A DNA stretch of 64,000 bases from Kiloniella spongiae (GTDB lineage Bacteria; Pseudomonadota; Alphaproteobacteria; Kiloniellales; Kiloniellaceae). This document shows, piece after piece, positions 29,519 to 44,699 of the stretch; within the stretch, counting starts at the first letter, position 1, and every line of letters begins with the position of its first letter. The stretch is taken from assembly GCF_001026905.1 (NCBI RefSeq), contig NZ_LAQL01000012.1, positions 1 to 64,000 of the forward strand, read 5' to 3'. The translations under genes were made by a program, and so were the position numbers. Below the pieces are notes generated by a model. It saw nothing but the letters and a program-made list of their open reading frames with translations, had not been told where the DNA came from and made no database searches.

Positions 29519-30517
29519 ATGCTTACCGAATTCAATTCATCTGTGCCACTGGCCTTCACCCCGACGCCCCTGCACCTTCTCAGCAAGCTATCGAAGCATC
29601 TCGGCGGGCCAGAGATCTTTATCAAACGGGATGACTGCACAGGTCTTGCCGGGGGTGGTAATAAAACCCGCAAGCTGGAGTTTCTGATTGCGGATGCGCT
29701 GGACAAGGAAGCAACCTGTGTGATTACAGCGGGCGGCCTGCAATCCAACCATGTTAGACAGACCGCCGCAGCGGCAGCACGTTACGGGCTAAAGTGCCAT
29801 CTGGTCCTGGTGCGAAATGTTGACTGGCAAGATCCGGCTTACCAGACATCGGGAAACCTCGTCCTTGATAAGTTGCTCGGGGCCGAAATTACCATTCATC
29901 CCGGCGGTTCTGATCGGGATCAGATTATGGATGATCTGGCTTCTGATCTCACAAAAGCTGGCGAAAGGCCCTATGTCATCCCCGTTGGCGGCTCCAATGC
30001 GGTTGGCGCCCTAGGCTATGCCAGCGCCCTGATGGAAATTCAGGAACAATGCCGCGAACTAAGCATCTCCCCCAAAGCGCTCTATCACGCGACATCCAGC
30101 GGCGGGACGCAGGCTGGCCTCATTGCCGGGATGATCACGCTGAAACGCCCTTTCCCTATTCTCGGCGTGGAAGTTGACGGTGATCCTGCCCCTGTCACCG
30201 ATGCCATCAAGTCTATTGTACCGGAAACACTGGAACGCCTTGGGCGTTTTGAAAGCTGGGACCCAGAACAGGACTTGCAAGTGATTACAGGCTATGGCGG
30301 CAGCAACTATGGCATTCCATCTGACGCAGGAAACGAAGCGATCGAGTTACTTGCGCGAAACGAAGGAATATTGCTGGACCCCGTCTATTCTGGCAAAGCC
30401 TTTGCTGGCCTTGTTGATCATATAAGACAGGGGCGATTTACAGAAAACGATACCGTGATCTTCCTGCATACAGGCGGAGCACAGGCACTTGGCGCTTACC
30501 CTTCTTTATTTAGATGA
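29519..30517 (+). CDS. PLP-dependent D-cysteine desulfhydrase / cysteate sulfo-lyase family
   Basis: A 332-residue fold-type II PLP enzyme. The cofactor lysine is K49 in GGGNKTRKLE, followed by GGLQSNHVRQTAAAAARYG and ATSSGGTQAGL (phosphate-binding loop). Homologues include DcyD (D-cysteine to pyruvate, sulfide and ammonia), ACC deaminase and CuyA (L-cysteate to pyruvate, sulfite and ammonia). The sequence alone does not decide among these. No sulfite exporter is adjacent, which argues weakly against CuyA. An SGNH hydrolase follows 36 bases later. Confidence 0.82.
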   Translation: MLTEFNSSVPLAFTPTPLHLLSKLSKHLGGPEIFIKRDDCTGLAGGGNKTRKLEFLIADALDKEATCVITAGGLQSNHVRQTAAAAARYGLKCHLVLVRNVDWQDPAYQTSGNLVLDKLLGAEITIHPGGSDRDQIMDDLASDLTKAGERPYVIPVGGSNAVGALGYASALMEIQEQCRELSISPKALYHATSSGGTQAGLIAGMITLKRPFPILGVEVDGDPAPVTDAIKSIVPETLERLGRFESWDPEQDLQVITGYGGSNYGIPSDAGNEAIELLARNEGILLDPVYSGKAFAGLVDHIRQGRFTENDTVIFLHTGGAQALGAYPSLFR

Positions 30518-30553
30518 TCCCAAACAAAACTATAAAGACCGAAAGATAGAAAA

Positions 30554-31189
30554 ATGAAACGAGTTTGTTTTCTTGGCGCATCCGTTATGGAGGGAATGGG
30601 CGATGAAGCGCAGCTGGGGATGCCCGGACGCCTTGCGCTTTTAGAGGCAGAAACCAAACAAAGCTTTATCCACTATAATCTGGGCGTCAGGGGGCAGACG
30701 CTCAAGGAAATATCGGGCCGCGCGGCATCGGAATGTCGGGCCAGATTTAAAGATGCAAAGGACTTTATTGTTTTCGCTACGGGGTCTAACGATTTCGCCC
30801 TCATTGAAAGCGGTTTTCCCAGAACTCCAAGGCGCAGAGCCATGAACAACTTCAAAGCCCTGATGACAGAGCTTGCAGAAATCGCACCCTTGCTTGTTTT
30901 TGGCCCAACACCTGTTGATGAAGGCAAGCTGCCCTTTTTCTCGACAGTATCGAATATGCATTTTGATTTTAAAAACGAGGAACTGGCCAGTGGCTCAGCA
31001 GAATACAGTACCATCTGTCAGGACTTGGACATTCCCTATATCAATATGCACGAGGCCTTGAGCTCGAGTAATGGCTTCATGACAGGGCTTGCGGAAAATG
31101 ACGGACTGCATTCAACCGGAAAAGGCTATCAGGCCATGGCAGAAATCGTGCGATCTTCCCTCCATTGGCAGAGCCTGATTCAGGCCTAG
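30554..31189 (+). CDS. SGNH/GDSL hydrolase
   Basis: A 211-residue cytoplasmic esterase or lipase-like protein with the four family blocks: FLGAS (nucleophile S10), GVRGQT (oxyanion Gly), TGSNDF (Asn) and DGLHSTGKGY (Asp and His of the triad). The substrate is unknown; acyl or carbohydrate esters are usual for this group. It is probably in one transcript with the PLP lyase upstream. Confidence 0.85.
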   Translation: MKRVCFLGASVMEGMGDEAQLGMPGRLALLEAETKQSFIHYNLGVRGQTLKEISGRAASECRARFKDAKDFIVFATGSNDFALIESGFPRTPRRRAMNNFKALMTELAEIAPLLVFGPTPVDEGKLPFFSTVSNMHFDFKNEELASGSAEYSTICQDLDIPYINMHEALSSSNGFMTGLAENDGLHSTGKGYQAMAEIVRSSLHWQSLIQA

Positions 31190-31200
31190 ACCTATAGACA

Positions 31201-31662
31201 TTAGGTGATAGGGAGTTCCAGCCCACGTTTGACGTTTTCCATTACGACGGTGGTGGTAAATTCCTGTATCGCCGGGTTATCGAAAAACACGCGTTTGGTG
31301 AACTTGTCGTAGGTTGTCATGTTTTCCGCTGTGACGATCAGCAGGAAATCAAAAGATCCGGTCACGTTATAGCATTGTTGGATTTCAGGCTCGCCGAGGA
31401 ACTGTGTTGTTAAGGCCTTTAAGATCTTGGCGTCACAACGTTCAATAACCAGTTGGACAATCAAGGTCAGATTGTGCGCCGAAACATCGGGGTTAATTAC
31501 TGCGACTTCCCGCTCAATAGCCCCCATATCCCGTAGTCGTTTAATACGGCGTTGACATGCAGTCGCGGACAGACCAACTTGTTCCGCAATGCTATCTGAT
31601 TTGAGGCGGGAATTTTCCTGTAATAATCGCAGGATAGCTTTGTCAAAATTATCTATTTTCAT
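31201..31662 (-). CDS. Lrp/AsnC-family regulator
   Basis: A 153-residue regulator with an N-terminal helix-turn-helix (DKAILRLLQENSRLKSD, ATACQRRIKRLR) and a C-terminal RAM ligand domain (CYNVTGSFDFLLIVTAEN). Single-copy neighbours of transporters often bind amino acids. The EamA exporter and the PLP lyase flanking it are possible targets. It is divergent from the EamA gene. Confidence 0.9.
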   Translation of the reverse strand: MKIDNFDKAILRLLQENSRLKSDSIAEQVGLSATACQRRIKRLRDMGAIEREVAVINPDVSAHNLTLIVQLVIERCDAKILKALTTQFLGEPEIQQCYNVTGSFDFLLIVTAENMTTYDKFTKRVFFDNPAIQEFTTTVVMENVKRGLELPIT

Positions 31663-31876
31663 CTTGGTCTTTAAACTGATCTGTAGGGCGACACTAGTCT
31701 GTTGCCGTTTCCGGCTAGGGGTTAAACTGGATAGAGGTCGAAAAAACGCTTCGATTTCTATTTGTTGCAGTTTTTTGATCCGGAAACCACTTATTTTGCA
31801 GCAAAACGATGCAAAAAATCGGCTACGATCCAGACAATAAAGACATAACGTATTTTTTGAGTATCGGGTAACGGGT

Positions 31877-32782
31877 ATGGATCAGGTTTTAAAATCAGAG
31901 CAAAGCACACTGACAATGGGTATTATCTATGGCTTGATGGCTGCCCTGTTGTGGGGAGCATGGCCTGTGGTGTCCAGTCTCGGTCTTCAAAACCAAACCC
32001 TGACGCCTTATGATATTACGGCCCTGCGCTTTGGTGTGGCAGGCACGATCCTTTTACCCCTGATCCTCAAACGTGGTTTCAAAGGCATCGGCCTGCCCGG
32101 TGGGCTTCTTTTTGCCTTCGGAGCTGGTGCACCCTATATGCTGCTCACCGTGACAGGACTTAACTTTGCCCCTGCAAGTCACATGGGGATCATCGCGCCA
32201 AGCTGCATGATGACCCTGTCCACTATCGGCGGCTGGTTTATCCTTGGCGATCGCCCCGACAGAAACCGACTGCTCGGTCTGGGCGTTATTATCCTCGGCG
32301 TTGCCCTGCTTGGCTGGTCCGGCCTTGCCATGGCGGGGGATAATCAGTGGATGGGACATCTGTTGTTTGTTGCCGGGGGTGGCTGTTGGGCGTGTTATAC
32401 GGTTGGCACAAAGTATTTCAAGGCTGATCCGCTGCACGCGACGGCCTTGGTCGCAGTGCTGTCCATGGTCATTTACCTGCCGCTCTATTTTATCTTTGGC
32501 GACCCACAGATCTTTGTCGCGCCGATCAAAGAAACCCTGTTTCAGGCTGCTTTTCAAGGCATCGGCTCTGCTGTTCTTGCCCTGCTGTTCTACACCAAAG
32601 CCGTTGCCTTGCTAGGCGCAGCAAAGGGTGCAGTCTTCGCCGCACTGGTTCCCGGTATTGCCGTTATCCTCGCCCTGCCAGTGCTAGGTGAAATCCCGAC
32701 GACCATCGAGATCATCGGTGTCAGCATCGTGACCATCGGTATGATTGGTGCCCTGGGCCTGATCAAGGTCCGAAAAAGATAG
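31877..32782 (+). CDS. EamA/DMT-family transporter
   Basis: A 301-residue membrane protein with ten helices and two EamA repeats (GIIYGLMAALLWGAWPVVSS; LFVAGGGCWACYTVGTKYF). These act as exporters of amino acids or other metabolites by proton or substrate exchange. It is divergent from the Lrp-type regulator, which suggests amino-acid controlled export. A palindromic repeat element lies 59 bases after its stop. Confidence 0.9.
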   Translation: MDQVLKSEQSTLTMGIIYGLMAALLWGAWPVVSSLGLQNQTLTPYDITALRFGVAGTILLPLILKRGFKGIGLPGGLLFAFGAGAPYMLLTVTGLNFAPASHMGIIAPSCMMTLSTIGGWFILGDRPDRNRLLGLGVIILGVALLGWSGLAMAGDNQWMGHLLFVAGGGCWACYTVGTKYFKADPLHATALVAVLSMVIYLPLYFIFGDPQIFVAPIKETLFQAAFQGIGSAVLALLFYTKAVALLGAAKGAVFAALVPGIAVILALPVLGEIPTTIEIIGVSIVTIGMIGALGLIKVRKR

Positions 32783-32840
32783 GTACCTTATCAAGGCCCG
32801 AAAAGGATAAGAATCTAACAGCAAAAAGTACCCCTGGTCG

Positions 32841-32930
32841 TTTTAATTTGCTGCTATTCAAGGCATGAAGAGTGAAGTGTAGGAGACCTATATAAGCGAT
32901 GAAACAACGCCGAAGAGTAGCGAATTAAAA
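32841..32930. repeat. Palindromic repeat element, copy A
   Basis: The conserved core is 32859-32909, starting CAAGGCATGAAGAG and ending GATGAAACAACG, with GTGTAGG...CCTATAT in the centre. The outer arms 32841-32859 and 32912-32930 are complementary in about 16 of 19 positions (TTTTAATT and AATTAAAA at the ends). The same core occurs at 42127-42176 (inverted) and 43402-43452. Confidence 0.85.
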
Positions 32931-33066
32931 TGATCAGAAGCTTTGATCTATTTGCGTCAGGAAAATTCGTCGCTTTTAGGGAAGCAGTATTCCGAGTAAA
33001 TTGCTACGAGATTATCTCTTTTATCACTGGTTCTTTTTTTCACGGGCAGTTACGGATTATTCGGGA

Positions 33067-35070
33067 ATGTTGTTAGGTATTGATACGGGTGGCACCTATA
33101 CGGATGCGGTTCTTTTCACAGAAGAAGACGGTGTGCTGCGGACCGCGAAGTCCCTGACAACCAAACACGACCTGTCCATAGGTATCTGTGATGCGGTCAA
33201 CCGGATTATGGATCGCGAGGGCGACCAGATCCGCATGGTGTCCCTGTCCACCACCCTTGCCACCAACGCCATTGTCGAAGCCCACGACAGCCCGGTCTGT
33301 CTGATTATGATCGGCTATGACAAGGGATCGCTTGAGCGATCAAACCTCGGCACCGCCATTGGCAAGAACCCCTATGTCTTTATTGACGGCGGGCATACGC
33401 CCCTTGGCGATGAGCAATCCGCGCTGGATCTTGACGCAGTGAAACGGGCCATCGACGAACACGCTCCCAATGTGTCCGCATTTGCCGTTGCGGGTTATTT
33501 CTCTGTGCGCAATGCATCCCACGAAGAAGCCGTCCGCAACCTGATACTGGAAAAAACCGACCGCCCGGTCACCTGTGCCCATGAACTGTCATCGGGGCTG
33601 GATGCCCCGCGCCGCGCCCTCACCGCGTTTTTGAATGCCCAACTGATCCCGCAATTGCACCAGTTGATCCACTCTGTCGATATCATGTTACAGGAAAAGG
33701 GCATCAAGGCCCCCGTGATGGTGGTCAAGGGCGACGGGTCGCTGATCTCTGCGCAAACCGCCCTTGAACGCCCGGTTGAAACCATTCTCTCCGGCCCTGC
33801 GGCCTCTGTGGTCGGGGCCAAGTATCTGTCGGGCGCCAGCGATGTCTTTGTCGTCGATATGGGCGGTACCACTACCGATATTGCAATCCTGATGGACGGT
33901 GAACCCAAGCTCAGCGAAGAAGGCGCCAACGTCGGTGGCTGGCGCACCATGGTCAAGGCCGTCGCGGTCAGCACTTATGGACTGGGCGGCGACAGTGAAG
34001 TCGCCCTCAACCGGACACAAAGGTGTTTATCTATCGGTCCACGAAGGGCTTATCCCATCAGCCTTCTCGCCCAACAACACCCAAGCGTTCTGGAAGAGTT
34101 ACAGCAACAACTCCGCAATGAACGTATTGGTGAATACGACGGACGCTTTGCATTAAAGCTGCGCGAACTCAATACTGCCCTCACCAGCCTGTCACGGCTG
34201 GAGCTGGAAATATGGGAAAGTCTCGCCGACGGTCCCGTTGCCCTGAACACATTGCTGGAACGCCCGGCCATGGCTGGCCCCTTGCAACGCCTGATTGATC
34301 GCGGTCTTGTGATTAATGCTGGTCTGACCCCCAGTGACAGCAGCCATATCCTGAACAAACAGAACAACTGGACCCGCGACGGCGCCCTGCTCTGCGCGCA
34401 ACTGTTTTTAAGACAGTCCCAACGTGATAATTACCTGTTGGGCGTCACACCCGACGACCTTGCAGAAATGATTTACCAGCAAACCATTGTTCAGGCAGGC
34501 AAAACCATTCTCGACACCGCCTTTATCGAAGAAAAAATCCCGCAAATGACCAATACCCAAAGTCTGGGACTGGCCCTGCTGGACAATGCGCTCCACAATA
34601 AAAGTGGCTCCACCACCAACACGCCCCTTCTGGACTTTACCGTCAAACTGGGCAGAGGCATTGTGGCAACGGGCGCCCCGTCAGCTATCTATTACCCGGA
34701 AATCACGGCACGCCTGAACACAGAGCTAAACCTGCCGGAAAACGCCGATGTGTCAAACGCAGTCGGTGCCGTCTGTGGCGGTGTTGTCCAGAAATACACC
34801 GTCCTGATTTCCTCCCCCGAAAAGGGTCGCTTCCGCACCCATATGGGCACCGAGCAAAAGAACTTCACCGTCGCCCAAGACGCCATCGATTACGCCAAAT
34901 CCCACGCAGAAGAAAAAGCCTATCAAATGGCATCGGAAAGCGGCGCCACAGATATCATCGTAGAAGTTGACCAGTTCGATAAAATCATCACCGACGCCGG
35001 CGGCGACCAACTCTTCATCGAAAGCGCTATTATAGCCACCGCCAAGGGGCGGCCCGTTTTGGCTGTTTGA
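33067..35070 (+). CDS. Hydantoinase/5-oxoprolinase family protein
   Basis: About 667 residues from the ATG at 33067, which places MLLGIDTGGTYTDAVLF at the usual N-terminus; a TTG at 33001 would add an atypical leader. It carries the Hydant_A_N domain (STTLATNAIVE) and the ATP-binding Hydantoinase_A domain (ILSGPAASVVGAKY, VVDMGGTTTDIAIL). Such proteins hydrolyse cyclic amides such as hydantoins or 5-oxoproline with ATP, usually with a B subunit. No B subunit is adjacent. The substrate is therefore unknown, and the gene may work alone or with a distant partner. Confidence 0.88.
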   Translation: MLLGIDTGGTYTDAVLFTEEDGVLRTAKSLTTKHDLSIGICDAVNRIMDREGDQIRMVSLSTTLATNAIVEAHDSPVCLIMIGYDKGSLERSNLGTAIGKNPYVFIDGGHTPLGDEQSALDLDAVKRAIDEHAPNVSAFAVAGYFSVRNASHEEAVRNLILEKTDRPVTCAHELSSGLDAPRRALTAFLNAQLIPQLHQLIHSVDIMLQEKGIKAPVMVVKGDGSLISAQTALERPVETILSGPAASVVGAKYLSGASDVFVVDMGGTTTDIAILMDGEPKLSEEGANVGGWRTMVKAVAVSTYGLGGDSEVALNRTQRCLSIGPRRAYPISLLAQQHPSVLEELQQQLRNERIGEYDGRFALKLRELNTALTSLSRLELEIWESLADGPVALNTLLERPAMAGPLQRLIDRGLVINAGLTPSDSSHILNKQNNWTRDGALLCAQLFLRQSQRDNYLLGVTPDDLAEMIYQQTIVQAGKTILDTAFIEEKIPQMTNTQSLGLALLDNALHNKSGSTTNTPLLDFTVKLGRGIVATGAPSAIYYPEITARLNTELNLPENADVSNAVGAVCGGVVQKYTVLISSPEKGRFRTHMGTEQKNFTVAQDAIDYAKSHAEEKAYQMASESGATDIIVEVDQFDKIITDAGGDQLFIESAIIATAKGRPVLAV

Positions 35071-35103
35071 GGAGATAAAGTCTTTAACATAGTATAACTT
35101 AGA

Positions 35104-35316
35104 CTATCGCAATTGATACACCATTCTCTTTATCTCATGCAGTTGTATATTGGGACACTCCTCTTGAAGAGCTTTATCTCTTGCTATCGCTGTTATCTTT
35201 TTCGAAGTTTCGATTTTTTTAAGAGCTAGCCTTTCTTCTTCAAGAGCTTTTTCGCTAGCCTTTTTTATGGAGTTGGCCGAACAAATGAATTTGCACCAGC
35301 AAGTATACCTGACCAT
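35104..35316 (-). CDS. Short Lys/Glu-rich frame overlapping the avidin gene end
   Basis: A 70-codon frame whose first 16 codons read the 3' end of the avidin gene out of frame. The remaining 54 residues (ASEKALEEERLALKKIETSK and onward) look like a genuine amphipathic helix rich in Lys and Glu. It may be a small overlapping gene, a former C-terminal extension of the avidin protein lost to a frameshift, or chance. There is no clear ribosome-binding site. I do not recognise it. Confidence 0.3.
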   Translation of the reverse strand: MVRYTCWCKFICSANSIKKASEKALEEERLALKKIETSKKITAIARDKALQEECPNIQLHEIKRMVYQLR

Positions 35317-35642
35317 AATTCTTTTGGCTCATTCTGCTCAGCAATATTCTTAGCTAAATGCCAAAGCGTCTTTATTTCAAATTCACCCGGACGAATAACT
35401 GTATGTTGTCCTGCCCATGCCGTAAGCGAACCGTACTTACCAAAGTTAACCGTAAAAGTTATTAAATCGCCGGAGGCAAATCCAGTTAAGTCAAATTCTT
35501 CTGTTGGAGTTGGCTCTCCAACGTTGGTTCGGTAAATACCTGAAACATCATTTCCCTGAACTGATAGCTCCATTTGAGATCCTAAACCATTTTCCCATAT
35601 GCCTTGAAAATCTTCGCTAGGAGGGGGTGCGAGTTCTACCAT
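35265..35642 (-). CDS. Avidin-family (biotin-binding) protein without signal peptide
   Basis: A 125-residue avidin/streptavidin-type beta-barrel. Key positions read, with streptavidin numbers in brackets: N18 (N23), S22 (S27), Y37 (Y43), T39 (S45), F67 (W79), S72 (S88), T74 (T90), W76 (W92), W94 (W108), L96 (L110), W110 (W120) and N118 (D128; Asn as in avidin). Nearly all biotin contacts are kept, so binding is likely. The short 3-4 loop (GKYGSLTAWAGQ) is avidin-like. The ATG at 35642 has GAGG upstream. No N-terminal signal peptide is found even from longer starts (35657, 35660), which is unusual for this normally secreted family. It is divergent from the ATPase gene. Confidence 0.85.
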   Translation of the reverse strand: MVELAPPPSEDFQGIWENGLGSQMELSVQGNDVSGIYRTNVGEPTPTEEFDLTGFASGDLITFTVNFGKYGSLTAWAGQHTVIRPGEFEIKTLWHLAKNIAEQNEPKELWSGILAGANSFVRPTP

Positions 35643-35991
35643 GTTATTTAACCTCATCAATTACCAATGATTGCAACAGCATTATTATCAACTGATTTAA
35701 GCTGTTTTGCAATTGAACAGTTATTAATATTTTATAAACGAAAATCATCAGAGAAACATTGCCGATAGAGGTAACTAACCTTTTATCAAAAACCCCACCT
35801 CCACCACTACCGAGAGTTGCTCATATCTGTATGGCAAGAGGTAAAGTATAATGATTTCCCACGCCTCAAAAGCAACACCAAAGGTTGTATGTCTGGTTGT
35901 TTTATATAGTTTTTATATTTATATAGAAATCGTCCCAAAACAAACAATCAGATTCTTGTACAAAACTAAAAGCATAATATTGGATTTTTAT
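35643..35991. other. AT-rich divergent promoter region of the accessory island
   Basis: About 349 bases between the avidin and ATPase starts. CTGTT and AACAG arms lie at 35702-35720. Very AT-rich runs at 35900-35985 probably hold the ATPase promoter. A frame from 35851 in phase with the ATPase exists, but it codes a hydrophobic low-complexity leader and lacks a ribosome-binding site. Confidence 0.45.
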
Positions 35992-38121
35992 ATGGATATA
36001 GAAAGATTTTCTAAGATATCAGAATCTCTTAGACAATACCGCCGAGCTGAACTCAAAGATTTTGAAACAGATATCGGGTCAAAACCAGTCGATATGCTGT
36101 ATGTGGATCCTCTTCCCGGAGGAGCCGTATTACAAACAGTTTTGTCCAGCAATACTACATTTTTGCTCGGAAGAAAAGGAACAGGAAAAAGTACAGTATT
36201 TGCAAAAGCTCAATCTGTTCTCAGAGAAAGAAAAAATGTAATTTCTATCTATATTGATGTGAAATCGATTTATGATGTATTAGGGGCAACAAATATTCCT
36301 GATGCAGAGCCAGATACTGCAGGAATTTCAAGCCTAACCTATAAAGCCCACATGCTTAGAAAAGTAATGCTGGGTAAGATAATTTCAGAATTACTCAAGG
36401 GAATATCAGATAGTTGCGAAAGTTTAACCTTACTTGAAAAGTGGAGAGGGGCTAAAAAACAGTACGATGAATTACGTAACTCTTTGATGGACATTGGCGA
36501 TAGAGTAAAAAACTCAAAGTTAGAAAAACACGAAATTCCAGTATTACAAAAAATTACAAGCCAACTTCGATTAAAAAAACAACAAGAAGCCTCAACAGCG
36601 ACATCATCTAATGGAAAGGCTAATGCAAAAATAAAAAGTTTTGACTATGAAATTAGCGGTGAATTAACAGGTTCTCTATCTGACTTTGATAGAACTTTAG
36701 ATGATAGTGACATCTATAATGAATACTCTGATGTCATATTAAAATCCTTTCCATTTGATGATATTATTACTGAAATACAGACTTTAATTTCAGAATCAGG
36801 ACTGCTCCGTTTAGTAGCATTTTTTGATGATTTTTCTGAATTAAGCATTGTTGATCAACGATTGTTTGTTGACGTCGTCTTATCACCACTTAACAATTCG
36901 AGTAATGAAATCGTGAAACTTAAAATTGCTGGTTATCCTGGACGTATTTATCACGGGAAAATTGATCCAAGCAAAGCGGATACAGTATTTTTAGATTTCT
37001 CAGATCTATATGAAGCAAATGAAGTTCAAGAGATGGAAAGATCAGCTTCTGATTACGCCTATAGATTGCTGGAAACACGATTTAAAGTATTTGGTATAAA
37101 ATTAGAAGATTACTTTGATGTGACATCCACAACATTAATAGAAGACTATATGAGTATGATGTTTCGTGCATCATTTAATGTTCCAAGGATTATGGGACAT
37201 ATACTACACATCTGTTATTTAGATAAAATATCAAGAAATGAGAAGATAACGCTCGCATCAATCAGATTAGCCGCGAAAAAATATTATGAAAATACCATAT
37301 CCAGATACTTTGATCGATTAAATAGATATGCCCTCGAACCTTTTGAAAACAAGCTAGACAGAAATAATCAACAACAATTACTTAATTGTATCGTCAATGA
37401 ATGCCGGGGAGTAAGAAAGCGAATAATAGATAAAGAAGTCGGGGGGAGATATTTTGATAACTTAGGAGGAAACCCCCAGACAAGTCACTTTATTGTCAGT
37501 CCAGATTTAGAAGAGATATTTTCATCATTAGAATCAAACTTCTTTCTCTCACGATACAAAAATACTAGAGACAAGGCTGGGAAGAATGTTGTTGTATATG
37601 CTCTTTTCATGGGTTTATGTGAAAGCGAACGAATGAACTGGGGGTACCCAGAAGGACGTGAATACAGAAACTATTTTGTACAAAGATGTTTCGAATACAC
37701 CAGAGCAATTCATCACTTCTTATCGCAGAATCAAACCATTAAATGTGAGAAATGCGGATTTTGTCATTCAATGGAAAATAGAAAAAGTATTGAACTGTTT
37801 AAATGGAGGTGTCCAGAGTGCATGGAAGGTTTATGCTCAATTGTTAATTTATCTGATGATTTTAGAGAAGAAGTAGAAAAACTAGATAAAGATATCATGC
37901 TTGAACCAATTGAACTTGAGATTGTAACAACTTTGAACGACGAAGAACGCAAAATGCGTGCCGGAGAAATATCAAGTTTAATTGATACCACCCATCAAAT
38001 GGTTGGTAAAAGGACAAGTAAACTTCAAGAAATGGGATTAGTAGCAAAAGAACGTGATGAAACGGATGGGAAAATGCGTAATTCACTAACAGATCGCTGC
38101 CAAGAGACTTATTTTGACTGA
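35992..38121 (+). CDS. P-loop ATPase with zinc ribbon and winged helix, unknown system
   Basis: A 709-residue protein from the ATG at 35992 (GGA 7 bases before it). Walker A GRKGTGKS is at residues 60-67 and Walker B (LRLVAFFDDF) at 272-281, with a Lys/Gln-rich probable coiled coil near 150-215 inserted between them. The middle is helical. A zinc ribbon has Cys pairs at 585/588 and 607/610, and a C-terminal winged helix lies at about 640-700 (MRAGEISSLIDTTHQMVGKR). The layout recalls Sll1717-like or STAND-like P-loop ATPases seen in accessory and defence loci. I do not recognise the exact family. The gene is far more AT-rich than its neighbours, which implies transfer. A small partner gene follows 52 bases later. 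Confidence 0.8.
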   Translation: MDIERFSKISESLRQYRRAELKDFETDIGSKPVDMLYVDPLPGGAVLQTVLSSNTTFLLGRKGTGKSTVFAKAQSVLRERKNVISIYIDVKSIYDVLGATNIPDAEPDTAGISSLTYKAHMLRKVMLGKIISELLKGISDSCESLTLLEKWRGAKKQYDELRNSLMDIGDRVKNSKLEKHEIPVLQKITSQLRLKKQQEASTATSSNGKANAKIKSFDYEISGELTGSLSDFDRTLDDSDIYNEYSDVILKSFPFDDIITEIQTLISESGLLRLVAFFDDFSELSIVDQRLFVDVVLSPLNNSSNEIVKLKIAGYPGRIYHGKIDPSKADTVFLDFSDLYEANEVQEMERSASDYAYRLLETRFKVFGIKLEDYFDVTSTTLIEDYMSMMFRASFNVPRIMGHILHICYLDKISRNEKITLASIRLAAKKYYENTISRYFDRLNRYALEPFENKLDRNNQQQLLNCIVNECRGVRKRIIDKEVGGRYFDNLGGNPQTSHFIVSPDLEEIFSSLESNFFLSRYKNTRDKAGKNVVVYALFMGLCESERMNWGYPEGREYRNYFVQRCFEYTRAIHHFLSQNQTIKCEKCGFCHSMENRKSIELFKWRCPECMEGLCSIVNLSDDFREEVEKLDKDIMLEPIELEIVTTLNDEERKMRAGEISSLIDTTHQMVGKRTSKLQEMGLVAKERDETDGKMRNSLTDRCQETYFD

Positions 38122-38173
38122 TTTAATCACTTAACATCAACCACGACAAGATTACCGTTACAGGAGTCTAATA

Positions 38174-38743
38174 ATGGGTTTTTACGTAAGTACATTAAGA
38201 AACATTCCCTCTGGTAAATTTAACCATTATATTTACGTCGTAGATTGTTCTGGAGACTCAATTCATACATCATGGATTAATGAAAATTTCAATCGTGTTA
38301 GTCAAGGTTTGGGTAATCGGGCTGGTATTATCCACGGACCATCGGATCTTTCTCTTGAAGTATTAAATTTTCTAAACAATCAACTCGAAGATGATTTTTT
38401 TGAGATTGAACATCTGTTACACTCGGCAACTTGCTTAATAATCACTGATAATGTTCTTGCACAAAGCCAGAACGATGTTTTTATTATTCCTTTGACTTCA
38501 GATAGATCAGAAGATGATCAAATACACGAATACATGAATCACATAATTGATACTATAATAGAGGCCATTTCATCGGGAAAATTCCGAAAATATCTAAATA
38601 CAAATGCAGCAGTTAAGTTTAAAATTAGAGGAAAAGGTAAAATATTAATAAACTCGATAAATTCTATATTAGAATTAAAACCAAATATTGCAGGCATTGG
38701 CATAAATATTAATGTTCTTATAGAGAAAATATTTAAACTATAA
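38174..38743 (+). CDS. Unknown 189-residue partner of the P-loop ATPase
   Basis: It starts at an ATG with AGGAG 8 bases before it and lies 52 bases after the ATPase, so it is almost certainly in the same transcript. It is equally AT-rich. No signal peptide or membrane helix is evident. The N-terminal half has alternating hydrophobic strands (HYIYVVDCSGD, CLIITDNVL, VFIIPLT), which suggests an alpha/beta domain. The C-terminal part is helical with basic residues. I recognise no motif. A sensor or effector paired with the ATPase is plausible but unproven. Confidence 0.7.
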   Translation: MGFYVSTLRNIPSGKFNHYIYVVDCSGDSIHTSWINENFNRVSQGLGNRAGIIHGPSDLSLEVLNFLNNQLEDDFFEIEHLLHSATCLIITDNVLAQSQNDVFIIPLTSDRSEDDQIHEYMNHIIDTIIEAISSGKFRKYLNTNAAVKFKIRGKGKILINSINSILELKPNIAGIGININVLIEKIFKL

Positions 38744-38856
38744 CCAATACAATTTTTAGGACATTCTTAAACCTTAGGTAAAAAACGGAGCCTTATCACC
38801 CGTGATCAGTGTCGGCTCGACAGATTTCGATCCCCCCATAAAGAGCCCTTTTCCCA

Positions 38857-39396
38857 TCACCCCAAAATCACACCGCTTGTCACGCTACTGATCATCGCCC
38901 CGGTATTAATCGGGTGATAGATGGGCATGGGCGGGCGGGTGGCATTTTCGACGCTTCTATGTATCCATTGTCGGTCTTCCATGCGGCGCAGGGACTGGGA
39001 CAGGGCGCGGTCTGTGATGGTGGATAGACTGCGCTTTATTTCGCTGAACTGACTTGGTTTTTGCAGGGTTGCCAGCACGGGCAAGGTCCAGGATCTGCGT
39101 ATCAAGTCCTGTTCTTTTTCTTCCGAAACGTCCAGAATTTTATGCGCCATTTCGGCTGCGACTTCGCCCAGTGGGGTCAGGCGGAATTCAGGGCGCAGGG
39201 GGTGGCCGTGGCCGGGGTTGCGTTCCAACAGGCCGATATCAATCAGATGTTCCATACTTTGCGCGAAGGCGGTTCGACTTGCGCCCGTTGCGCTCAGCAA
39301 GAGGGCTTGCCGCCCCGGCACGCCAGTGTGGAGCTTGGCAAGGATGGGCAGCGCCCATGCTCGTGATGTGATGTTGACAAATATATTTATGTCCAT
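38857..39396 (-). CDS. Regulator with two tandem HxlR-like winged helices
   Basis: A 179-residue protein in which a winged-helix module appears twice: SRAWALPILAKLHTG with LTPLG at about residues 11-77, and RRSWTLPVLATLQKP with IYHPINTG at about 99-167. HxlR proteins normally have one such module and dimerise. A tandem copy suggests a single-chain pseudo-dimer. It is divergent from a VOC gene 70 bases away and probably regulates it. The GC content returns here to that of the main chromosome. Confidence 0.75.
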   Translation of the reverse strand: MDINIFVNITSRAWALPILAKLHTGVPGRQALLLSATGASRTAFAQSMEHLIDIGLLERNPGHGHPLRPEFRLTPLGEVAAEMAHKILDVSEEKEQDLIRRSWTLPVLATLQKPSQFSEIKRSLSTITDRALSQSLRRMEDRQWIHRSVENATRPPMPIYHPINTGAMISSVTSGVILG

Positions 39397-39465
39397 AAAG
39401 TATAGTTACTATAATTTAAGAATACAAGAAAGCCCCTAAAGGAAAAAACCAGTAAAGGAAAATCT

Positions 39466-39843
39466 ATGTCACTCGTAAAGTTGAATGAAATGATCACAAT
39501 TGCAATGTCGGTCACTGACCGCCACAAAAGTGCGGACTGGTACCAGAAAATACTGGGGTTTGAAGTTATGTACCACGCCGATGAAGCGGGCTGGTCAGAG
39601 ATTAAAACCAACACGCAAAACGTAACAATTGGCCTTGGCGAACACACAAAACCGGCCCCCGGCAACTGTGTTCCCGTGTTCGGCATCGCAGATCTGGATA
39701 ACGCACGGGGCAAGATGGAAGATGCCGGTGTCCGGTTTGACGGCCCCACAGATGTGGTCGAAGGTATGGTGAAAACGGCAACCTTCTATGACCCCGACAA
39801 CAATGCCCTGATGCTTGCCGAAGATTTATCAGGGGCTGCGTAA
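39466..39843 (+). CDS. VOC-superfamily protein
   Basis: A 125-residue vicinal-oxygen-chelate protein (AMSVTDRHKSADWYQKILGF at the start; TFYDPDNNALMLAEDL at the end) of the glyoxalase/bleomycin-resistance group. The substrate is unknown. It is divergent from the tandem HxlR-like regulator, a common pairing for electrophile response genes. Confidence 0.85.
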   Translation: MSLVKLNEMITIAMSVTDRHKSADWYQKILGFEVMYHADEAGWSEIKTNTQNVTIGLGEHTKPAPGNCVPVFGIADLDNARGKMEDAGVRFDGPTDVVEGMVKTATFYDPDNNALMLAEDLSGAA

Positions 39844-39862
39844 TGATACAGCCTCAGGGTTT

Positions 39863-39897
39863 GTTCTCTGGGGGGCGTTCTCTGGGGGGCGTTCTCT
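39863..39897. repeat. 14-bp tandem repeat, 2.5 copies
   Basis: GTTCTCTGGGGGGC occurs twice (39863-39876, 39877-39890) followed by GTTCTCT, in the 297-base gap after the VOC gene. I see no gene in that gap. Confidence 0.8.
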
Positions 39898-40140
39898 AGA
39901 GGTGTTCTTGGGGCTTCGCTCTCAGGGGCATTACACGATGAATAACCTGCTTATGAAGGCACGGTTGAAAGATATTTCTGGTTCATAGCCAATGCGAACG
40001 ACACCCTCTTCCACAGGTAATTTTTACATTGGCAATTTTCGCCCGAAGAAGCTCGCACGCATGAGACATTATCTTTAAATCTGCACTTTGAAGTCTGCGC
40101 CTTAAAGTCTTCGTCTTAAAATCTGCGAGGTTTCACGAGA

Positions 40141-40749
40141 TCAGGAATAGGTCATCCGGAAGGTAAGGCAGATACGCTCGCCCGTTGGTTTGTTGGTCTT
40201 GGGGATCTGGTGCAACCAGTAGTGCTGGGTCTCGCCCTTCATCAATAACAGATTGCCCGCCTGCAGATTGATATCGAACGGCAGGGTCTCGCCTGATTTT
40301 GGCTTGAATTGAAAAATCCGATCACCACCGAAACTGAGGGAAGCAATGGCCGGATTTGTGCCCAACTCTGCCTCGTCATCCGCATGCCAGGCGACGCTGT
40401 CTCGCTCGTGACGGTAGAGGTTACAGAGCACGCTGTTATAGGTAAATCCGGTTAAGTCTTCAACCCGATGCTTGAGACGTTCCAGCAAGGGCGTCATCGG
40501 CCTTGCTGGCATGTGCAGGCGTGAATAGGTGTAGTCCGACTCTCCGTACCATTGCTGTAAACGGGGGATCGGCACGGTCCGGCCATGAAGAGAGATCTCG
40601 GCTTGCTGCCAATCGAGATCGGTTTTCAGTAACTCGAAAATCTCTACACTTTCATCAGCCGAATAGGCCTTGGGGAAGCAAGAAATATCGGCTTGTGGGG
40701 CAGGATAGTGAATTACCTTTGTATCCGGTGTATCCGGTGTATCCGGCAA
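40141..40749 (-). CDS. AlkB-like 2-oxoglutarate/Fe(II) dioxygenase
   Basis: About 202 residues, of the ALKBH2/3-like bacterial type. The iron ligands are in WHADDEAELG (His and Asp) and the later QHYWLHQIP His, followed by the 2-oxoglutarate arginines (ERICLTFR). It repairs 1-methyladenine and 3-methylcytosine by oxidative demethylation. The start is probably the TTG at 40749 because GGGGGAGG lies 5 bases before it; the longer frame to 40764 places that signal inside the gene. The first residues are a threefold Asp-Thr-Pro repeat made by a 9-base tandem repeat. Confidence 0.88.
   Translation of the reverse strand: MPDTPDTPDTKVIHYPAPQADISCFPKAYSADESVEIFELLKTDLDWQQAEISLHGRTVPIPRLQQWYGESDYTYSRLHMPARPMTPLLERLKHRVEDLTGFTYNSVLCNLYRHERDSVAWHADDEAELGTNPAIASLSFGGDRIFQFKPKSGETLPFDINLQAGNLLLMKGETQHYWLHQIPKTNKPTGERICLTFRMTYS
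40721..40747. repeat. 9-bp tandem repeat, three copies, in frame
   Basis: GTATCCGGT, GTATCCGGT and GTATCCGGC in a row. On the minus strand they encode Asp-Thr-Pro three times at the extreme N-terminus of the AlkB-like protein. Confidence 0.85.
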
Positions 40750-40777
40750 TCTAACCTCCCCCAATTACCATACAAAC

Positions 40778-41371
40778 CTATGATTCTTCTGTATCTGCCT
40801 CTACAGTTTCTGGCTCTACAGTTTCTGCATCCACAGTCTCGGCACTTACAGCCTTGGTCCCTACTTTCTCGGTTCCTACAGTTTCTGTACCCACAGTCTC
40901 TGCCCAGGCGAGACGATTGGCTTCGCTATCTTCTTTGTCGCCAAGGAAATCCTGATAACTTTCCGGGTCAAAGGTGACGGGAACCAAAGTGATCTCTTCT
41001 CTATGAAGCTCTATCCGAGCGCGGGTGATAACCGTGCTGTATACCTTGTGATAGCGAAAGATCTTGTAGAATTCCGGCTTCCATTCTTTGAACAGTTTAT
41101 TGCCGAGATACCGTATAACAGGAACACTTTCGGGCTTCCCCTTTGCTTCGACAATGTCATCGACGGTCGCGAGAAGGTCTTCGACATAATCTTCGATGGT
41201 TTCTTCGAGTTTGAGTAGCTCAGTCGCCTTCTCATCAGGGATTTCAGACTTTCCCTGTACCCAGCTAAAAAGGTCTCTTGCCGGGACTCTGAGAACGCCA
41301 GCGGCCTCGCGATGGGTCATGCCCATTCCAAAGATAATATCATCCATTTGATCTGGTGTAAGTTTTGACAA
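40778..41371 (-). CDS. HTH protein with a pentapeptide-repeat acidic tail
   Basis: A 197-residue protein starting at a TTG with AGGA 9 bases before it. The N-terminus has a helix-turn-helix (MTHREAAGVLRVPARDLFSWV), and a mixed helical region follows. The last 45 residues are a degenerate five-residue repeat of the form ETVGT/ETVDA, from repeated 15-base units at about 40780-40905. I do not recognise the family. A 12-base inverted repeat lies 26 bases upstream and may be its operator. A DNA-binding regulator is likely. Confidence 0.65.
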   Translation of the reverse strand: MSKLTPDQMDDIIFGMGMTHREAAGVLRVPARDLFSWVQGKSEIPDEKATELLKLEETIEDYVEDLLATVDDIVEAKGKPESVPVIRYLGNKLFKEWKPEFYKIFRYHKVYSTVITRARIELHREEITLVPVTFDPESYQDFLGDKEDSEANRLAWAETVGTETVGTEKVGTKAVSAETVDAETVEPETVEADTEES

Positions 41372-41396
41372 TTTGTAACGTCCTGTTTTGTATAGC

Positions 41397-41430
41397 TATT
41401 GCTATAACAACCTGAGCAGTTATAGCAATA
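41397..41430. promoter_or_regulatory. Perfect 12-bp inverted repeat upstream of the HTH gene
   Basis: TATTGCTATAAC and GTTATAGCAATA are separated by 10 bases. The repeat could form a hairpin or be a dimeric operator. It lies 26 bases before the start of the HTH protein gene. Confidence 0.65.
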
Positions 41431-41556
41431 AAGTTAGTCGGCCCCACCCGTGTTGAAACTAGGGAATGGTATAAGGCCTAATGATTCTGACGCCTATGTA
41501 ACATGATCTGGCAGATTATGAACATATTATTTCAAAAGAGTTTTGGCAAATTTCGG

Positions 41557-41580
41557 GCTGACATTTAAGCTGACATTTAA
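41557..41580. repeat. 12-bp tandem duplication
   Basis: GCTGACATTTAA occurs twice in a row in the 290-base gap between the HTH gene and the PilZ gene. No gene is seen there. Confidence 0.8.
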
Positions 41581-41661
41581 ATCGACTTGAAAATGCTTCT
41601 TATCGTTCGGTTTATGACACTTAGAAATCTTAATGCACCACGGGTTATATCCGCAATAATT

Positions 41662-42078
41662 CTACCTCAACCGCCCCAGAACGATCTTCTCCAGCGTATT
41701 AAAGTCTTTGTTGCCGATGTTGACAAAACGGGCGCCGAGTTTGCCGTGGTCGGCATCAGCGCGGCGGATTTCGATGTCGATCAAAAAGGGATCGGCTTTT
41801 TTCAGTAGAATTTCGAGGCTGACAATATCGCCGACTTTCAGACCCAGTGCTTCTATATCAAGCTTTTCGCCGTCTTCAACGATAACGTCCATATCGCCGT
41901 ATTCTTCAAGATCAGTCTCTTCCCCCTTGATGCCGACGCCGCCGGGACTGATATCGTTAATCGTCACACGGACACCGTTGAGGATAGCGTCTAATCCACT
42001 TAGCTTTGCAGCAAGGCTAACGGCGCGGCGATGATCGCGTCTTCTTTCTTTGTTATAAACCGCTACTACCTTCGCCAT
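41662..42078 (-). CDS. PilZ-domain protein
   Basis: A 138-residue protein. The c-di-GMP binding motif appears as RRRDHRRAVSLAAKL near residues 11-25 (RxxxR) and NDISPGGVGIKG (DxSxxG) further on. It would respond to cyclic di-GMP and influence motility or surface attachment. No diguanylate cyclase is adjacent. It is divergent from the FemAB-like gene, with a palindromic repeat element between them. Confidence 0.85.
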   Translation of the reverse strand: MAKVVAVYNKERRRDHRRAVSLAAKLSGLDAILNGVRVTINDISPGGVGIKGEETDLEEYGDMDVIVEDGEKLDIEALGLKVGDIVSLEILLKKADPFLIDIEIRRADADHGKLGARFVNIGNKDFNTLEKIVLGRLR

Positions 42079-42126
42079 AAAACCTTGAATCCCTTTTGAT
42101 AGTTATCCAATCTAACTCTTCCTTAT

Positions 42127-42176
42127 CGTTGTTTCATCGTTTGTGTAGGTCACCTACACGTCTCTCTTTACGCCTT
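42127..42176. repeat. Palindromic repeat element, copy C (inverted)
   Basis: On the minus strand the core reads AAGGCGTAAAGAGAGACGTG and onward to CGATGAAACAACG, differing from copy B at only about 4 of 51 positions. The centre GTGTAGGT-C-ACCTACAC (plus strand, 42143-42159) is a perfect 17-base palindrome. It lies between the divergent PilZ and FemAB-like genes. Confidence 0.85.
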
Positions 42177-42336
42177 AGGTAAAAGCCAAGTTTAATAACT
42201 ATGGTTGTCGAACTTGTATAATAATAGCACGAATATATCGGGAAATCATTTACAAAGCCATAGATAAAGCATTATGGATAATAGATGATTCGCCTAAAAA
42301 CAATCTTTCAAAACAACCGCGCTCAACAACACATCC

Positions 42337-43317
42337 ATGCCTGATAAAGCCCTGACGAAAGCACCCAATACCAACACGCTTGACATAAAGTGGAACGATG
42401 TTTCCGTACGCCAGTGGCGGAACCTTGTGCGTAAAGCCGGGCAATCAAACCTTTTACAAAGCTGGCCCTATGCACAGGCGGTTCTGGTGACCGAACGTCT
42501 GGTAGGCAAGTTTGCCACCATCTATTGGCAAGGGCGTATTGTCGGTATCTGTCAAGTACTCGAACAACGGTTACTCGGTGTTTTTCACAAAGTAAGACTC
42601 TATCGCGGGCCGCTGTGGCTGGAACCCGACATCCCGCAAGAGGTTCACGAATTCTTCTGGTCCGAAATACAAAAACGTTATCCATCGCGTCCCTGGCGGT
42701 TTCGATACTTCTTACCGGAAATGCCGGATACAGAAGAAAACCGCGCCTTGCTGAGCAAATTTGGTCTGAACCGTATTCAGACAGACGGTTATTCATCAAT
42801 CTGGCTGGACCTGACACAGCGCGAAGAAGTCTTACGCGCGAACCTGAAACAGAACTGGCGCAATACACTGAACCAGTCAGAGAAAAAAGGCCTGTCACTG
42901 GAACTGGACACAGAGGGCAAGCACCTGAACTGGCTGTTGAAACTCAGTGAAATGGATAAGATCCTCAAAGAATTCAAAGGGCCAAGCCCCGCCTTGGTCG
43001 CGCATCTGAAACGCTTTACAAAAGACCGCGGTGAATTTCTGTTGCTGCGCGCACTTCATGATGGTGAAGCTGTCGGCGCCATTCTGTTGTTCCTGCACGA
43101 AGGCAGCGCAACCTATCTGGTCGGCTGGAACTCACAAGAAGGGCGCGATGCCCGCGCGCACAATTACCTGTTGTGGAATGCCCTGCTGGAACTGAAAAAG
43201 CGCGACATCAAATGGTTGGACCTCGGCGGGATCAACCCCAATGATGCCAAGGGCGTGACCTTCTTCAAAAAAGGCCTCGGCGGCACCCCCTTTACCCTCG
43301 TCGGCAGCTACAACTAG
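42337..43317 (+). CDS. FemAB-like GNAT-fold acyltransferase
   Basis: A 326-residue protein with two GNAT-like halves of the FemAB/BioF2-like group (NLLQSWPYAQAV near the start; LKQNWRNTLNQSEKKGL; LWNALLELKKRDIKWLDLGG). FemAB enzymes add amino acids from tRNA to peptidoglycan. In Gram-negative bacteria, relatives act in lipid or exopolysaccharide modification. The substrate is unknown. A 14-base palindrome with a T run directly follows the stop. Confidence 0.82.
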   Translation: MPDKALTKAPNTNTLDIKWNDVSVRQWRNLVRKAGQSNLLQSWPYAQAVLVTERLVGKFATIYWQGRIVGICQVLEQRLLGVFHKVRLYRGPLWLEPDIPQEVHEFFWSEIQKRYPSRPWRFRYFLPEMPDTEENRALLSKFGLNRIQTDGYSSIWLDLTQREEVLRANLKQNWRNTLNQSEKKGLSLELDTEGKHLNWLLKLSEMDKILKEFKGPSPALVAHLKRFTKDRGEFLLLRALHDGEAVGAILLFLHEGSATYLVGWNSQEGRDARAHNYLLWNALLELKKRDIKWLDLGGINPNDAKGVTFFKKGLGGTPFTLVGSYN

Positions 43318-43340
43318 GTGGCTATAGCCACTTCTTTTTG
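43318..43340 (+). terminator. Probable terminator of the FemAB-like gene
   Basis: GTGGCTATAGCCAC (43318-43331) is a perfect palindrome just after the TAG stop, followed by TTCTTTTT. Confidence 0.6.
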
Positions 43341-43383
43341 TGGCTATTTTACTTTCTCATGGCTATTTACTTTTCAATAGTTG

Positions 43384-43482
43384 CTATAGTTGATTTCTGT
43401 TCAAGGCGTGAAGAGAGACGTGTAGGCGACCTACACGAACGATGAAACAACGCAAAACAGAAGTTAAGTAGAGTAACTATAG
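43384..43482. repeat. Palindromic repeat element, copy B
   Basis: The core is 43402-43452 with GTGTAGG and CCTACAC arms. Outer arms CTATAGTT/AACTATAG and TTCTGTT (43395-43401)/AACAGAA (43456-43462) extend the hairpin. It lies between convergent genes, and its right arm forms the last codons of the YeeE/YedE gene. A role as a bidirectional terminator is possible. Confidence 0.85.
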
Positions 43483-44699
43483 GCCCTACGTATTCTGACG
43501 CCGATCATATTCCCGGCGAGAGCCGCGAAGAGCCACACCCAGCCGTGTATGCTGCCCGATGCGACGCCGCTGAAAAAGGCACCGATATTACAGCCATAGG
43601 CCAAACGCGCACCATAGCCCAACATCAAGCCGCCAATCAGGGCCGTAACGATGCCTTTGGTCGTGACGTTCTGTGACTTGCCAAACTTTCCGGCCAGAAC
43701 CGCCGCGCTCATGGCCCCGGCGACAATACCTATATTGGTGGCCGAGGCATCGCTTTTGAACAGTGACCGATCCAGCGCCGCCATCCGCCCGGACCAATAA
43801 GGAATGTCAGACAGATCCGCGCCAAGGAAAGACACCAGCTTGCCACCCCACAGCGTAATACCAGATGTAATCCCCCACGGGTGCCCCAACAGGGCCAACA
43901 TCGCAAAGTTCAGCAAAGCCAGTGCCACGGCACCGAGCACAAGCGGCCATGGTCCTTCGGTAACCCGTGTGAGCAAGGGAGTTTTAGGAGAGGTCTCGGC
44001 TTCTTTCACCAAAAAGCTTTTGTTTTCAACCCTGCGGACAAAGAGATAGAGCAAGGCAAAGACAATCAAATGCAGGATCAGGGCTTGTTCCCACCCCCAG
44101 AGGCTCACCATGGAAACGGCTTTCCACTTGGGCAGGTCGTGCCAGAACGGCAAGTGTACCGTCGCAATGACCGAACCCAACATAAAGGTGATCAAAGTCA
44201 CGACCATACGGATGCTGCCGCCGCCAACGGTAAAGAGCGTTCCACTGGCACAGCCCCCCGCGATTTGCATGCCGATGCCAAAGACAAAGGCCCCGACCAC
44301 AACACCTGTTCCCGCTGGCGCAACAAAGCCCGATGCCCTGTGGCCCAAAATAGTGCCGCTATCCAGCACCGGAAAGAACAGCGTGACAACAACCGCCAGC
44401 ATGACAATCTGTGCCTTGAGTCCTGCCCCCCAGCCCTCGGTCAGAAAACGTCGCCATGCCGAAGTAAAGCCAAATGCCGCATGATACAGACTGATCCCAA
44501 GGGCAACACCCAACCCCGTGGCGATTGTAGGCCGCTGCCCCATATAAAAATACAGCACAACAAGCGCCAGCAGAGAGATTGCCAGGGGCAAATACTTATG
44601 TGGAGAGAGTATGTAACTTGTTTGCGCTTGCATTAAATGGGTCCGCTTGATGGATTGGTGATCAGACTTCTTAACTGATTTTGAGCTTATCATACTCAT
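43464..44699 (-). CDS. YeeE/YedE-family (thiosulfate/sulfur) transporter
   Basis: A 411-residue membrane protein with two homologous halves and about ten helices. The family cysteine motifs GGCASGTLF and GARLAYGCNIGAFF are both present; in TsuA such cysteines relay thiosulfate. The start at 44699 has AAGGG 7 bases before it. It probably imports thiosulfate or other sulfur species for assimilation. The last six codons lie within a palindromic repeat element. Confidence 0.9.
   Translation of the reverse strand: MSMISSKSVKKSDHQSIKRTHLMQAQTSYILSPHKYLPLAISLLALVVLYFYMGQRPTIATGLGVALGISLYHAAFGFTSAWRRFLTEGWGAGLKAQIVMLAVVVTLFFPVLDSGTILGHRASGFVAPAGTGVVVGAFVFGIGMQIAGGCASGTLFTVGGGSIRMVVTLITFMLGSVIATVHLPFWHDLPKWKAVSMVSLWGWEQALILHLIVFALLYLFVRRVENKSFLVKEAETSPKTPLLTRVTEGPWPLVLGAVALALLNFAMLALLGHPWGITSGITLWGGKLVSFLGADLSDIPYWSGRMAALDRSLFKSDASATNIGIVAGAMSAAVLAGKFGKSQNVTTKGIVTALIGGLMLGYGARLAYGCNIGAFFSGVASGSIHGWVWLFAALAGNMIGVRIRRAYSYST

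Follow-up and report, generated by a model that had tools for sequence, protein, structure and literature searches.

A solitary AAA+ ATPase with a zinc ribbon and predicted winged helices, carried at an exchange site in Kiloniella spongiae, is a candidate stand-alone anti-phage protein

In a 64,000-nucleotide stretch of the alphaproteobacterium Kiloniella spongiae (assembly GCF_001026905.1, contig NZ_LAQL01000012.1, positions 1 to 64,000 of the forward strand; hereafter the window), a gene at 35992..38121 on the forward strand codes for a 709-residue ATPase, in which an AAA+ core is followed by a probable winged helix-turn-helix domain, a C4 zinc ribbon and a C-terminal MarR-like winged helix-turn-helix domain. 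This gene is stand-alone, patchy in its distribution and mobile. We propose, with a modest preference over other explanations, that its product is a horizontally exchanged, single-gene anti-phage or superinfection-exclusion protein whose assembly on DNA would block an invader without cutting it; a role in defense or superinfection exclusion in general, whether by such a non-cutting mechanism or in an abortive form, appears likely. The proposal is based on the rarity, mobility and low guanine-plus-cytosine (GC) content of the gene, its operation as a single gene, its addresses beside anti-phage genes and the distant kinship of its core with a validated anti-phage ATPase.

The conserved features of the protein were defined using an alignment of ten members, namely the window protein and nine full-length homologs (alignment A4; a second alignment, A2, has nine members and lacks the homolog L013). 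The start at 35992 is favored over an in-frame upstream ATG at 35851 by the alignment with the homologs L002 and L003. The ATPase core (residues ~20-465) displays a Walker A motif, GRKGTGKST (residues 60-68; 36169..36195), which is identical in all ten members, a Walker B strand with the signature DDFSE (residues 274-283; 36811..36840), in which DD and SE are invariant and the intervening residue is F in nine members and Y in one, and an invariant Pro398-Arg399 pair (37183..37188), for which we presume a sensor-2-like role by analogy. The presence of GRKGTGKST, DD(F/Y)SE and PR in 10/10 members likens the core to the ORC/Cdc6 clade of AAA+ ATPases, with the roles of the motifs again assigned by analogy. 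Further downstream, the four cysteines of the zinc ribbon (Cys585, Cys588, Cys607 and Cys610; 37744..37821) are retained in every member, with CX4C replacing CX2C in L008. A preliminary description of this DNA had already recognized the Walker motifs and the cysteine pairs, and had proposed that the ATPase is fused to a DNA-binding end; sequence matches and structure models concur, pointing to winged helices along with the zinc ribbon as the probable DNA-binding modules.

An AlphaFold2 model of residues 431-709 (mean predicted local distance difference test score, pLDDT, of 81) sets the zinc ribbon between a putative first winged helix and another at the C-terminal end. The first of these, a helix plus a strand-helix-strand-strand unit at residues ~457-545 (37360..37626), has no separate fold match, and on the strength of the model we read it as a probable winged helix placed right after the ATPase core. 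The preliminary description, which did not recognize the combination found here, had missed both this unit and an avidin-family gene upstream (see below). It had correctly pointed to the C-terminal winged helix (residues ~636-709; 37897..38118), which is MarR/ArsR-like and is recovered by a match to Pfam HTH_27 (E=1.9e-4; 22.1 bits, narrowly missing the Pfam cut-off of 22.2), by comparison of the ATPase-family profile with PDB sequences (best E=9.1e-5) and by a fold search with the 431-709 model, whose best 50 PDB matches are all winged-helix proteins, mostly MarR-family regulators (best E=1.1e-3 to a MarR-type protein, others weaker).

The core furnishes the link to known defense proteins. 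At E<=0.01 all nine members of A2 align with both NF047389 (Sll1717; best 2.9e-14) and NF053860 (DS41_1_antiphage; best 1.6e-12), the homologs L002, L004 and L005 reaching no better than 1.6e-12 against the latter; L013 aligns with Sll1717 over profile positions 5-433 of 454 and shows no DS-41 match at E<=0.001. According to an excerpt of the DefensePredictor study, DS-41 is among the defense systems validated by plaque assay (PMC13092281); NF053860 is equated with a gene of that system by its name. The ORC-CDC6-like model PF24389 is matched by 5/10 members (best 4.6e-8), whereas the window protein itself has no match to it in Pfam at E<=10. In a Foldseek search with the full-length AlphaFold2 model, RdrA emerged as the top match (E=2.9e-5), followed by ORC and Cdc6, with TnsC next at 2.2e-3; each of the ten matches at E<=0.001 is a chain from an RdrA, ORC or Cdc6/Orc1 complex.

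Homologs are few and scattered. In A2 the closest to the window protein is L002 (58% identity), from a contig of a metagenome-assembled genome, followed by L003 (45%), a 6-kb MOBP plasmid of Enterobacter hormaechei; L004/L042 (35%) and L005/L043 (31%) come from two class genomes other than the window's own, and L007 (34%), L009 (34%), L008 (32%) and L010 (30%) from contigs of a viral collection, as does L013 (29% by tblastn). Searches with the single protein recovered the gene in 1/58 relatives (the window's own genome), 3/289 class genomes (its own and two others) and 1/398 genomes of the phylum (its own), and searches with the A2 profile in the families of the two class carriers recovered it in 1/75 and 1/10 genomes, in each case the carrier itself (G334 and G095, respectively); some of these samples overlap. 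Searching E. coli genomes with the nucleotide sequence of the plasmid gene yielded no family member. L008 and L013 as single-protein queries retrieved only themselves. The family is undersampled, because the search of genome contigs used the window protein alone and returned one locus. The preliminary description had named, as the case that would speak against its proposal, an ATPase found alone in most genomes with a housekeeping role; the gene is indeed found alone, and its rarity disfavors a housekeeping role.

Of 321 genomes from another class of the phylum, two gave matches just around the P-loop (E ~1e-5), which represent superfamily relatives and were excluded from the counts. One is a 773-aa protein of G812 (L044 4838-7159, reverse strand), a fusion that joins a TIR-like region close to the N-terminus, recognized by a weak TIR-effector match (PADLOC E=3e-4), to a complete Sll1717 ATPase (1.4e-88). 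The other belongs to G1002 (L045 3427-6564, reverse strand), where genes for 172-aa, 525-aa (the Sll1717-like ATPase) and 308-aa proteins stand in a row, possibly forming a multi-gene relative. A fragment in the filamentous vibriophage KSF-1 (L006 6529-6936) matches residues 4-124 at 33% across two annotated hypothetical open reading frames (ORFs); for the remainder of the ATPase gene no match was reported in KSF-1.

Examination of gene neighborhoods shows that the homologs occur in mobile-element and defense-site contexts. In L008 the ATPase gene directly adjoins a P2-type phage portal gene and a gpP-like terminase gene, and in P2-like phages the region from gpA to the portal gene gpQ is described, in an excerpt of the source, as a hotspot with old, tin and other anti-phage systems (PMC9122126). 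In L009 it lies between type III restriction-modification genes of the mod/res type and a trypsin/NB-ARC gene, and in L013, a phage contig that also codes for DnaB, it is next to an Mrr_cat endonuclease gene. Tape-measure and terminase genes are present on the L007 contig and an S24-type phage repressor gene on the L010 contig, while the L003 plasmid carries mobilization genes, CcdAB and a rep gene. L042 has genes for a tyrosine integrase and a resolvase 5-7 kb upstream of the ATPase gene; in L002 an integrase and a prim-pol gene lie 4-5 kb from it, and the locus also has an addiction-module antidote. Near-identical ORF pieces in L002 (9094-9396 and 12155-12508, reverse strand), which presumably correspond to the end of hisF, flank a stretch near the integrase gene and may mark an integrated element. 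In 8/9 homolog loci the ATPase gene has a GC content 13-25 points below that of the rest of the locus.

The site of the gene in the window itself is a variable cargo segment (35062..38847), bounded on the left by a gene that we take to be hydantoinase-like (33001-35070) and on the right by a gene for an HxlR regulator (38857-39396, reverse strand). Nine genomes of the genus, the window's own included, were searched: G004, G001 and G007 have both flanks on one contig, G002, G003, G006 and G008 have flank matches on separate contigs and G005 has none. Blastn homology with the three sister loci ends on the left at 35061 in all of them and restarts on the right at 38853 (L039), 38863 (L040) and 38848 (L041). 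The contents of the interval are different in each. In G004 (L039 850-4096) it codes for an Imm32-like protein, a DUF2971/PDC-S31 protein (PADLOC 3.2e-14), a 441-aa protein without a family, with cysteine pairs close to the N-terminus, and an Abi_C/AbiJ-type protein (Pfam Abi_C 3.1e-21; PADLOC AbiJ 1.6e-21, over the C-terminal part of the model). In G001 (L040 931-3677) it holds three genes without defense models, which by position are candidate unknown defense genes; the product of one combines an SH3 domain with tandem repeats of ~27 residues. In G007 it is nearly empty, with 673 bases between the matches and a single 123-aa ORF, presumably for a VOC-type protein. The cargo in the window comprises an avidin-family gene (35265-35660, reverse strand; PF01382 E=1.7e-18), which shares the AT-rich segment and whose biotin-binding type of product is unexpected in such a place, the ATPase gene and a 189-aa ORF.

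As the preliminary description had noted, the last two are much richer in A and T than the genes on either side: their GC contents are 0.346 (ATPase) and 0.304 (189-aa ORF), against 0.554 and 0.565 for the bounding genes and 0.460 for the window. No part of the window is richer in A and T: every one of the 2752-base intervals of lowest GC content (down to 0.337) overlaps the pair, and outside the segment the lowest value is 0.398. The suggestion of the preliminary description that the DNA was acquired is supported by this composition and by the replacement of the segment with other cargo in sister species. The borders of the cargo bear no transposition signature, since none of the repeats found links one border to the other at high identity, and the 64-kb window has no tRNA gene; no terminator was found in the sequence, and promoter-like matches are at chance level. 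As for a defense-type setting, that part of the earlier suggestion gains support from the sister species and the homologs and none from the other window neighbors; with an abortive-infection-type gene in one relative and no known defense gene among ten further window neighbors, the locus is best viewed as an exchange site and not as a visible defense island.

On these grounds we posit that the ORC/Cdc6- and RdrA-like AAA+ core would bind ATP and oligomerize, that the two winged helices and the zinc ribbon would bring the ATPase onto DNA or onto a DNA-bound phage complex, and that the resulting ATP-dependent assembly might prevent the invading element from replicating or being expressed, with no cutting, as suspected for BrxC-type ATPases. 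A more specific version, in which an AAA+ ATPase of the origin-initiator type would use ATP to load on the invading DNA via both winged helices and the zinc ribbon and would jam the start of its replication with neither nuclease nor partner, as a one-protein phage-exclusion device and minimal counterpart of what BrxC may do within BREX, is put forward tentatively.

Several observations weigh against the proposal of a non-cutting defense ATPase. No catalytic effector was found in the ATPase in Pfam, NCBIfam, PADLOC, PHROGs or the C-terminal model. The window protein has just a weak match to DS-41, scoring 16.7 bits (E=0.003) where 370 are required, and its own PADLOC matches are to CARF/Csa3 models via the helix-turn-helix (best 1.9e-4), with mad8 at 0.018. 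The ten best Foldseek matches have template-modeling (TM) scores by query of 0.15-0.19 and root-mean-square deviations above 20; since the full-length model is of low quality, with a pLDDT of 61, the ranking of ORC and RdrA, including the low-TM ORC/Cdc6-type matches at E 5e-5 to 1e-3, can be taken as supportive at most. Ten further neighbors in the window (29519-44699) include no known defense gene, the only PADLOC matches among them being those of an Lrp-like helix-turn-helix protein and a 2-oxoglutarate (2OG)-oxygenase-like protein to parts of CARF fusion models. The phage setting of the homologs is in part a matter of ascertainment, because 5/9 of them come from a viral-contig collection; the frequency of defense neighbors is a raw tally, uncalibrated against random genes; the L008 contig spans 5 kb, and the gpA side of the region lies outside it; L005/L043, where one neighbor (a sensor kinase gene) was scanned, has no recognized mobile or defense gene; and L002 is the exception that shows no GC contrast.

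The most serious alternative, which we consider unlikely, is that the ATPase serves mobile elements in their replication, partition or regulation, for instance as an ORC-like initiator helper or a transcription factor. An ORC/Cdc6-like core joined to winged helices would suit such a role, and the best evidence for it, which also counts against our proposal, comes from the L003 plasmid, where the start of the ATPase gene overlaps the stop of the Replicase/PriCT rep gene by 4 bases. The superfamily relative in G1002, its 525-aa ATPase, weakly matches the orc1/cdc6 model TIGR02928 (3.5e-5), and AspA, which we take to be a plasmid-partition protein, is among the weaker winged-helix matches. However, the L003 plasmid has its own rep gene, the window gene is solitary in chromosomal cargo with no replicon in sight, the neighbors in L008 are portal and terminase genes and not a replication module, the gpA-gpQ region is, as excerpted above, an anti-phage hotspot, and the very site of the window gene is occupied, in a sister species, by an abortive-infection-type gene.

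STAND/ORC-type ATPases are common sensor components of abortive-infection systems, and the protein could alternatively be such a sensor, with an effector hidden in a variable insert (residues ~100-260) or in the unassigned 495-580 region. Conservation in the latter is suggestive, with an invariant Ser-His-Phe (residues 498-500) in 10/10 members and Tyr561, Phe562, Arg565 and Phe567 also invariant in A4. Yet the ATPase matched no nuclease, TIR, HEPN or membrane family in Pfam, NCBIfam, PADLOC and PHROGs, its C-terminal model found winged helices and no nuclease among the best 50 fold matches, and the insert is poorly conserved, though also poorly modeled; we regard this alternative as doubtful.

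The coordinates of the ATPase gene and of the 189-aa ORF (38174..38743, forward strand), 52 bases apart, are as first described, and the reading of the two as a two-gene unit, suggested by this gap, their shared strand, a good ribosome-binding site and similarly low GC content, is very improbable given that the ORF is missing at 9/9 full-length homolog loci and has no homolog in the collections searched. The probable ribosome-binding site, AGGAG (38162..38166, forward strand), ends seven bases before the ATG. At the nine loci, where downstream DNA was present throughout and upstream DNA was short at L007, L008 and L010 (the contigs starting at or near the gene), the best tblastn match had E=3.0, the KSF-1 record included; an absence of the second gene beside all homologs of the ATPase is what the preliminary description itself had named as evidence against the unit. 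The ORF had no homolog among plasmids, phages and viral contigs, and was not found in 57/58 relatives, the remaining one being the window's own genome, or in 364/367 class genomes, where one was its own and two gave partial matches (E=0.005 and 0.007) that lie in parts of larger frames and were rejected as chance. Nor did it show a significant family match, its best being PemK_toxin in Pfam (E=0.11), 0.08 in PHROGs and 0.53 in PDB, with none at E<=1 in NCBIfam and PADLOC. It is thus unlikely to be a standing partner of the ATPase and is better seen as an orphan neighbor, an independent passenger in the cargo site.

If the proposed role as a non-cutting defense protein is correct, the ATPase would be a compact single-gene addition to the ORC/Cdc6-like defense ATPases, which are known from large multi-gene systems such as BREX. 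A protein of 710 residues, found on a 6-kb plasmid or next to a P2-type portal gene, would then be a convenient model in which to study interference with phage DNA that needs no nuclease, and the cargo site would be a place to seek further defense genes.

Judged from profile comparisons, the ATPase represents a sister family of Sll1717 and DS-41 with its own C-terminal half, outside both by curated thresholds. Against Sll1717 the family scores 30-53 bits in seven rows (window protein 32.4, best homolog 53) and falls short of the cut-off of 75, and the 454-position model spans the core alone, so that the predicted winged helix, zinc ribbon and second winged helix are additional here; against DS-41 it scores 17-40 bits in six rows (23-40 for the five homologs listed), missing the cut-off of 370, and this model of 448 positions likewise stops short of the C-terminal modules. 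The family is absent from the literature titles listed on DS-41, ORC-CDC6 and zinc ribbon, winged helix and AAA+ anti-phage proteins, and no paper was found on the Sll1717 family or under the accessions and family names searched. From the ORC1/Cdc6 initiators the ATPase differs in the zinc ribbon between its predicted winged helices and in its status as an accessory gene. RdrA of RADAR, the best Foldseek match at low TM, differs in its chain of 851 residues, the ATPase here being a single gene; in an excerpt of the original report its authors set RdrA apart from the defined AAA+ clades (PMC9994260). No RdrB deaminase match was found among 12 window neighbors and the 189-aa ORF, or among the homolog neighbors, which were scanned in part. 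The ATPases of BREX and BREX-related systems, BrxC/DUF499, offer the nearest described parallel, as the excerpted source describes them as an ORC-Cdc6 AAA+ domain followed by a winged helix-turn-helix domain, a further domain and another winged helix-turn-helix domain (PMC12839542). BrxC, by the same excerpt, is a protein of 1200-1300 residues that acts together with other brx genes, whereas the present protein has ~710 residues, is solitary and contains a zinc ribbon; no BREX model was matched among the 12 window neighbors in PADLOC and no brx gene among the homolog neighbors scanned in Pfam. Judged by the neighbors scanned, the ATPase is thus a member of neither BREX nor RADAR. BREX is reported, again in excerpt, to inhibit phage DNA replication (PMC13326643). 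The protein described here most likely works as an ORC-type defense ATPase.

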